Notes under the pieces: model-generated | What the model was told of the DNA's origin: nothing | The model's input: the letters and a program-made list of their open reading frames with translations, nothing else | Databases searched by the model: none | Shown here: positions 20,841-21,267 of the stretch, piece by piece | Layout of the letters: the number at the start of each line of letters is the position of its first letter | Position numbering within the stretch: the stretch's first letter is position 1 | Translations under genes and position numbers: made by a program | Origin: Gemmatimonadota bacterium | GTDB lineage: Bacteria; Gemmatimonadota; Gemmatimonadetes; Gemmatimonadales; Gemmatimonadaceae | Length of the DNA stretch: 64,000 nucleotides | Direction: 5' to 3' | Assembly (NCBI GenBank): GCA_026387915.1 | Contig: JAPLKS010000021.1 | Coordinates: 1-64,000 of the forward strand

Positions 20841-20930
20841 AAGAACCTCAGCGGGTGTGTTGTCACTGCTAAAGGTGCTTGGATGTGGGAGGTGGGCGCC
20901 AGAGTGGGTGTGGGCTAGGACGGTGTGAGG

Positions 20931-20970
20931 GAAAAGAAAGCGGGGCCGCGCCACCTGGCGCGAGCCCCGC
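20931..20970 (-). terminator. Rho-independent terminator downstream of the tRNA
   Basis: On the minus strand GCGGGGC-T-CGCGCC pairs with GGCGCG-GCCCCGC (one bulge, 4-nt loop), followed by TTTCTTTTC. It lies 74 nt past the tRNA 3' end and would end its transcript. Confidence 0.8.
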
Positions 20971-20975
20971 TGACT

Positions 20976-20989
20976 GGCAGACTGCGAAT
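20976..20989 (-). other. 14-nt antisense of the tRNA anticodon arm in its trailer
   Basis: The plus strand reads GGCAGACTGCGAAT, the same 14 nt that the tRNA carries on the minus strand at 21101-21088 (anticodon stem, loop and anticodon). In the minus-strand transcript this segment is therefore the perfect complement of the anticodon arm and lies between the tRNA 3' end and its terminator. Confidence 0.85.
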
Positions 20990-21043
20990 CGGAGGTGAAT
21001 TTAGGGATTCCGTTCTGCATCCGCAACAACGAACACTCGCCCG

Positions 21044-21127
21044 TGCTCGAACCGGGATTCGAACCCGGACGACCTTTCGGTCAGCAAATTCGCAGTCTGC
21101 CGCGTCTACCGTTTTCGCCACTCGAGC
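21044..21127 (-). tRNA. Class II tRNA, Leu-type body with anticodon GCG
   Basis: An 84-nt cloverleaf on the minus strand. Acceptor stem GCTCGAG/TTCGAGC has one G-U; a 3-bp Leu-type D stem (GCG/CGC) has GGTAGA in its loop; anticodon stem GCAGA/TTTGC has one G-U; a long variable arm GACC-GAAA-GGTC follows; the T arm is a perfect CCGGG-TTCGAAT-CCCGG; the discriminator is A; CCA is not encoded. All of this matches bacterial tRNA-Leu, but the anticodon loop is CTGCGAA, so positions 34-36 are GCG (plus-strand 21091-21093), which would read CGC/CGU arginine codons. Bacteria normally read those with tRNA-Arg(ACG). It could be a real chimera, a missense suppressor or a pseudo-tRNA. A GATCACC-GA-GGTGATC palindrome lies 3 nt before the 5' end. 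Confidence 0.8.
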
Positions 21128-21267
21128 CGGGATCACCGAGGTGATCGACGCGTACGCTGCGACATACGCGCTGCGAGTATTCCCATCAGCATACGGCCAG
21201 CGCCGCGGCGGCCTGACATCGGAGAGCCGCAAGCCGGCGCGAACTATTGCTAGCGTTTTGGTTCGTA

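Follow-up and report, generated by a model that had tools for sequence, protein, structure and literature searches.

Why would a bacterium keep a tRNA whose body is of the leucine type and whose anticodon reads arginine codons? The question is raised by a class II tRNA gene with a GCG anticodon in a Gemmatimonadota genome (contig JAPLKS010000021.1 of assembly GCA_026387915.1), of which we analysed one whole stretch of 64,000 nucleotides, here called the window. We propose that this gene is half of a two-gene, RNA-only module, in which a Leu-charged missense tRNA would be the toxin and an antisense RNA the antitoxin; we give this reading a probability of roughly 0.5. The first gene would encode a Leu-accepting tRNA that reads abundant non-Leu codons (here CGC/CGU); a free, Leu-charged copy of it would lead to missense translation on a wide scale. 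The second, directly 3′ and in the same orientation, would encode an antisense RNA of about 60 nt with its own promoter and terminator, and this RNA would block decoding by pairing with the anticodon arm or, in some modules, with the 3′ stem and variable arm. In a large group of Gemmatimonadales a second anti-anticodon hairpin loop, in the leader, may silence the precursor. We infer the Leu charging, the toxicity, the neutralization and a selfish or defensive role.

The tRNA is the only one that ARAGORN calls within the window, as tRNA-Arg(gcg) at 21043-21127 on the minus strand, and the Rfam tRNA model matches 21044-21127 with 51.8 bits (gathering score 29). The acceptor stem (7/7 bp) and the anticodon stem (5/5) are fully paired, the anticodon loop is CUGCGAA, and the variable arm, GACC-GAAA-GGUC, is capped by GAAA; body, D arm, A73 and variable arm are all Leu-type. 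A preliminary description of the locus, made from the sequence alone, had reported an intact Leu-type class II body with a GCG anticodon, and this is confirmed by ARAGORN, Rfam, the stems and A73, with no visible decay. That description placed the locus correctly, left its strand (minus) unstated and overlooked the adjoining 14-nt inverted repeat and terminator; it counted silencing among its options, which agrees with our interpretation, and missed the antisense RNA gene and the leader hairpin. The source genome also carries five ordinary tRNA-Leu genes and tRNA-Arg genes with ACG, CCG, CCT and TCT anticodons, so the window tRNA is surplus to normal decoding. Could it nevertheless be a tRNA-Leu gene decayed into a pseudogene, or else an ordinary tRNA-Arg? 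The latter has in its favour the name given by ARAGORN, which comes from the anticodon alone, and we found nothing in favour of decay: no stem is broken and no invariant position is missing. The ACG, CCG, CCT and TCT tRNA-Arg of this genome are class I, whereas the window tRNA is class II, and its perfect stems, its conserved family and a Leu body shared across many anticodons make this the least credible of the explanations that we weighed.

The second proposed gene lies downstream of the tRNA in the same orientation (Table 1). The duplex between antisense and anticodon arm has a computed energy of -31.7 kcal/mol, compared with -1.5 for the anticodon stem-loop alone. The terminator begins a few bases after the antisense and would end the predicted antisense RNA, which spans about 60 nt (20931-20990), as well as any pre-tRNA made by read-through. 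The predicted antisense promoter of the window has a weak -35 element and is weaker than those of other modules. Among 46 tRNAs examined in the source genome, only the window tRNA has an exact antisense of more than 8 nt (14 nt) within 200 nt downstream, and the longest exact anticodon-arm antisense among 333 tRNAs of virus contigs was 9 nt.

Table 1. Features of the tRNA and antisense locus in the window
Feature	Position	Strand	Remarks
Leu-type class II tRNA (proposed toxin)	21044..21127	minus	anticodon GCG, A73; CCA absent from the gene
Pre-tRNA leader	21128..21195	minus	hairpin HP1 stem 21149-21170; hairpin HP2 21131-21146, immediately 5′ of the tRNA
Antisense to the anticodon arm, ATTCGCAGTCTGCC	20976..20989	minus	exact 14-nt reverse complement (inverted-repeat search)
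Predicted sigma70-type antisense promoter	20998..21026	minus	-35 TTGCGG 21021-21026, 17 nt, -10 TAAATT 20998-21003
Intrinsic terminator, strong	20929..20970	minus	hairpin 20940-20970 and U-tract; sequence and folds

The window copy belongs to a family. We defined a set of 43 modules by a local-alignment antisense score of at least 11.5; the highest scores were 10.5 in 30 ordinary tRNA-Leu(CAG/GAG) and 11.0 in reversed controls. Local alignment replaced an exact inverted-repeat measure, which missed antisenses covering the 3′ stem and variable arm, and the duplex energy relative to shuffled trailers was a poor discriminator owing to GC-rich terminators. The tRNAs of the set are 83-89 nt long with a long variable arm; the search pattern included the Leu D-arm motif TGGYRRAANNGGYAGACRC, and their Leu-type D arm therefore largely follows from the selection. 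Relatives carry Leu-type tRNAs with other non-Leu anticodons, and each antisense fits its own anticodon arm. The set excludes most of the odd Leu-type tRNAs of other bacteria and phages, which lack an antisense.

Across the family, the antisense looks like a gene of its own, with a predicted promoter and terminator. Within the tRNA-antisense spacer, the highest-scoring promoter-like site ends 1-8 nt 5′ of the antisense in 40 of 42 modules, and these sites score 9.37 on average, compared with 6.90 in shuffled spacers. Their spacing is nearly always 17 nt and their -35 element usually TTGAC, and sites like TTGAC[TCGA]-17-TANNNT stand at an equal distance from the antisense in most of the 42 modules, e.g. 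TTGACT-17-GATAAT in L367, TTGACA-17-GATAAT in L119 and TTGACC-17-TATATT in L037. An intrinsic terminator 3′ of the antisense was detected by script in 34/43 modules. In L119 and L367 a T-run follows straight after the tRNA, therefore the two transcripts may be separate there. Two other roles for the downstream RNA were considered. Masking of the tRNA by its own trailer through read-through alone is largely superseded by the promoter-like sites in the spacer, although cis masking of read-through transcripts is possible. A leader or attenuator of a downstream gene was rejected, since no downstream gene is conserved across the family.

The two genes covary. In the 33 modules whose antisense covers the anticodon arm, Watson-Crick pairing with the 5′ anticodon stem is 0.885, and falls to 0.322 (maximum 0.461) when antisenses are swapped between modules; all four pair types are present in most stem columns. 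The tRNA's strongest partner is its own antisense in 40/43 modules. Pairs of modules in shared gene surroundings (L326/L327, L328/L329 and L325/L335) differ in their stems, and each antisense matches. An explanation at the level of DNA would be that an inverted repeat, for example an attachment site, is kept by recombination or template switching next to a dispensable tRNA-like gene and has no RNA function. Inverted repeats can be homogenized without selection and integrases commonly target the anticodon loop, both of which would suit this idea. It leaves unexplained the predicted promoter that ends 1-8 nt upstream of the antisense, the terminator downstream, the independently complementary loop in the leader (see below), the presence of A73 throughout the family and the absence of such repeats from ordinary tRNAs, and we find it scarcely credible.

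On the side of the tRNA, A73 and a 7/7 acceptor stem are found in all 43 modules and a 5/5 anticodon stem in 37; a GG-Y-A motif in the D-loop is common to the module tRNAs. U33 is present in 36/43, and position 34 is G in 33 modules and C in the other 10, never A or U. On this conservation, the module tRNA is under selection as a tRNA. There are 11 anticodons, none of them Leu: GCG (13), GCC (5), CGC (5), GTG (4), GGC (4), GTC (4), CAC (4), and GGT, GAC, GGA and CGG once each. The Leu body is thus common to members with His, Ala, Asp, Val, Gly, Thr, Ser and Pro anticodons. LeuRS (leucyl-tRNA synthetase) of E. coli requires A73 and elements of the D-loop and does not require the anticodon (PMC9976931), so charging of the module tRNAs with Leu is expected. 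We share the prediction of the preliminary description that a Leu-charged window tRNA would place Leu at CGC/CGU. Its suggestion that relatives be used as a check on degeneracy led to intact copies, again with non-Leu anticodons. Its focus on Arg is right for GCG here but does not extend to the family, in which many non-Leu anticodons occur and Arg is not special.

The codons read tend to be abundant ones. In the open reading frames of the window they rank as follows: GGC 1, GCC 2, GCG 3, GTG 4, CGC 5, GAC 7, ACC 8, CCG 10, CAC 20, GTC 25 and TCC 37. The mean rank of 11.1 has P = 1e-5 relative to random non-Leu codons and P = 0.003 among G/C-ending codons. That the anticodons mostly read the commonest codons of the host is supportive evidence for a missense tRNA and we use it only as such. 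It also bears on another possibility, that the module provides a Leu-tRNA for a non-ribosomal use, e.g. aminoacyl transfer, with the antisense keeping ribosomes away and the anticodon free to drift. Invariant Leu identity elements beside a variable anticodon and stem, as well as C33 in some modules, would be consistent with this. However, drift should not confine position 34 to G or C in every module, nor favour abundant codons, and no protein neighbour is conserved across the family. We consider a non-ribosomal role very improbable.

A further layer of control is suggested by the leader. In one large group of Gemmatimonadales, a leader of about 65 nt is conserved upstream of the tRNA, and the consensus fold of 17 leaders gives HP1 a 12-bp stem in which 7 pairs show changes on both sides. 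In the window copy the HP1 loop, UCGCAG (21157-21162), is complementary to the anticodon loop CUGCGAA, as judged from sequence and fold. The complementarity between leader and anticodon is 9.56, compared with 7.89 +/- 0.32 on permutation, and the loops change together: UCGCAG with CUGCGA, UCACAG with CUGUGA and UCGCGG with CCGCGA. This anti-anticodon hairpin may keep the precursor silent.

Where the module occurs is informative about its role. Gemmatimonadota, mainly the order Gemmatimonadales, account for 37/43 modules. Single modules were found in metagenome-assembled genomes (MAGs) labelled Zixibacteria (L129), Acidobacteria (L161) and Phycisphaerae (L119); such labels may be wrong, and the leader of L129 resembles that of a Gemmatimonadales subgroup. 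A genome from the phylum of L119 has an additional module with anticodon CTC (L408). No second module was found in a 297-genome sample of the Acidobacteria-labelled phylum of L161, so the module is rare and patchy outside Gemmatimonadales. Three modules are on virus contigs (L229, L244 and L367), and modules occur on phage contigs that carry genes for portal, head or terminase proteins. A second copy in L244 (Gly ACC) is weaker, with a score of 11.0, below the cut-off. The window cassette had no match in a plasmid collection, and in cultured phages only tRNA genes matched, most of them annotated as tRNA-Leu. Among 99 relatives we found no Ser-body versions, and the Leu CAG/GAG pattern gave at most two matches per genome, as expected from one ordinary gene each, so modules with Leu CAG/GAG anticodons were not seen. 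The architecture, the covariation, the Leu identity elements, the non-Leu anticodons and this patchy distribution, phages included, can all be read directly from the sequences.

In two loci of relatives, L045 (G007:C129) and L039 (G017:C841), the 5′ part of the tRNA is gone and the antisense segment and terminator are kept; the gene surroundings of these remnants are similar to those of the window.

We favour a toxin-antitoxin reading because truncated-tRNA remnants keep the antisense, phage contigs carry the module, its distribution is patchy, and its sequences diverge fast with complementarity kept. An alternative with the same architecture is a conditional mistranslator of benefit to the host, in which the antisense would restrain a Leu missense tRNA until the cell is stressed and profits from a limited amount of Arg-to-Leu (or other) mistranslation. 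The copies of relatives are chromosomal, mostly low-copy and intergenic, as this would have it; the phage contigs, the patchiness and the differing target codons between relatives fit a conflict module better. It ranks first among the rivals, and we still think it unlikely. Presence in phages and bacteria and rapid diversification could also point to an anti-phage or anti-nuclease device, i.e. a decoy or sensor for tRNA-cutting enzymes, or for RNase inhibition, that is freed on infection (abortive infection). No conserved defence-gene neighbourhood was seen, a statement for which no dedicated defence-gene library was searched, and such a device would be one use to which a toxin-antitoxin module could be put more than a clear alternative to that reading; on its own we judge it quite unlikely.

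Several observations weigh against a missense tRNA toxin held by an antisense RNA. C33 replaces U33 in 7/43 modules, which should weaken decoding. High GC content and shared ancestry partly confound the argument from codon frequency, with codon usage taken from mechanically chosen open reading frames, and the permutation tests and shuffles ignore the relatedness of the sequences. The tRNA's own promoter is weak or uncertain in the window and weak or unrecognizable in Gemmatimonadales. Where no terminator separates the two genes, read-through would yield a precursor inhibited in cis, and control could then lie mainly in cis. Finally, the relative L090 (G156:C110) has an odd Leu-type GCC tRNA and, downstream of it, ACTTGACGGGTTACCG, which fits a different, GTC-type anticodon arm; this is possibly a recombined or unlocked module.

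How does the proposed module relate to known systems? Type VIII toxin-antitoxin systems consist by definition of an RNA toxin and an RNA antitoxin, and known toxins are proteins or, in type VIII, RNAs by which tRNAs or mRNAs are blocked (PMC12737573). In CreTA, CreT uses a tiny open reading frame to sequester a rare cellular tRNA, and CreA acts through the CRISPR effector (PMC8501985). The module resembles type VIII in that two adjacent genes would each encode an RNA partner, as predicted here from sequence, and in that the antitoxin would be specific for the toxin RNA, here through computationally detected covarying pairing; as in type VIII and CreTA, the proposed toxin would act on translation via tRNA-codon decoding. 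In contrast to CreTA, a tRNA itself would be the toxin and a plain antisense to the anticodon arm the antitoxin, with no Cas dependence apparent; CRISPR-repeat-like handles, a trait of CreTA, were not noticed near the antisense, though no systematic search was made. As in type I systems, a small antisense RNA with its own (here predicted) promoter and terminator adjoins its target, but the target is a tRNA instead of a toxin mRNA, and the antisense gene is downstream on the same strand without overlap. The 3′ETS-leuZ RNA is a processing-derived tRNA trailer sponge that targets other small RNAs. It shares with the module a functional RNA (here proposed) directly 3′ of a tRNA-Leu gene; the module RNA differs in being antisense to its own tRNA and in having its own predicted promoter. 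Allo-tRNAs and the nematode nev-tRNAs are class II tRNAs whose anticodon is mismatched to the amino acid of the body, as in the module tRNA, but the body of the latter is of the ordinary bacterial Leu type. We know of no pairing of allo-tRNAs or nev-tRNAs with an antisense RNA gene. Allo-tRNAs are covered in a review (PMC7609411).

We found no description of a tRNA toxin with an antisense RNA antitoxin in the open-access papers searched, an absence that is not proof. The resemblance to type VIII appears to concern the working mode, which should be distinguished from what the module is, and novelty would rest on an anatomy undescribed in the literature searched. That the module founds a class of its own among RNA-only toxin-antitoxin or abortive-infection systems, setting a missense tRNA directed at the codons that the host uses most against an antisense RNA to its anticodon, seems to us a little short of an even bet. 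We are just as tentative about its having spread in Gemmatimonadales, in phages and in a few other bacteria, with anticodon and antisense evolving per lineage. If the toxin-antitoxin reading is correct, a code-rewriting tRNA restrained by an antisense to the anticodon would poison and protect translation in a way not known before, and would be a ready-made switch for controlled mistranslation. It would also explain why some genomes retain tRNAs that seemingly break the genetic code. In current annotations such genes count as additional tRNA-Arg, -His, -Ala etc., and tRNA counts and codon-usage studies would then need correcting.

Some related sequences fall outside the module set. Leu-type class II tRNAs whose anticodon is Gly(GCC), Asp(GTC) or His(GTG), and near which no antisense was detected, occur in other bacteria (L101, L113, L121, L131, L141, L148, L149, L155, L181, L187 and L197). 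Virus contigs such as L207, L213, L222 and L233 carry many antisense-free class II tRNAs of 83-103 nt, called Asn(GTT), Asp(ATC) or Ile(AAT), with an anticodon call that is often uncertain; many of them encode CCA. Pattern matches that resemble the 5′ half only of a Leu-type tRNA, where ARAGORN finds no tRNA, were seen in L114, L137, L143, L146, L150, L165, L177, L200 (Listeria) and many virus contigs, and are possibly attachment-site halves of elements integrated in tRNA-Leu. The first ~700 bases of the reverse strand of L244 form a phage island of consecutive short units, each with a TTGACA/TATAAT-like promoter and a terminator: first comes a tRNA-like sequence whose D region is odd, followed by the Gly(GCC) and Gly(ACC) modules.
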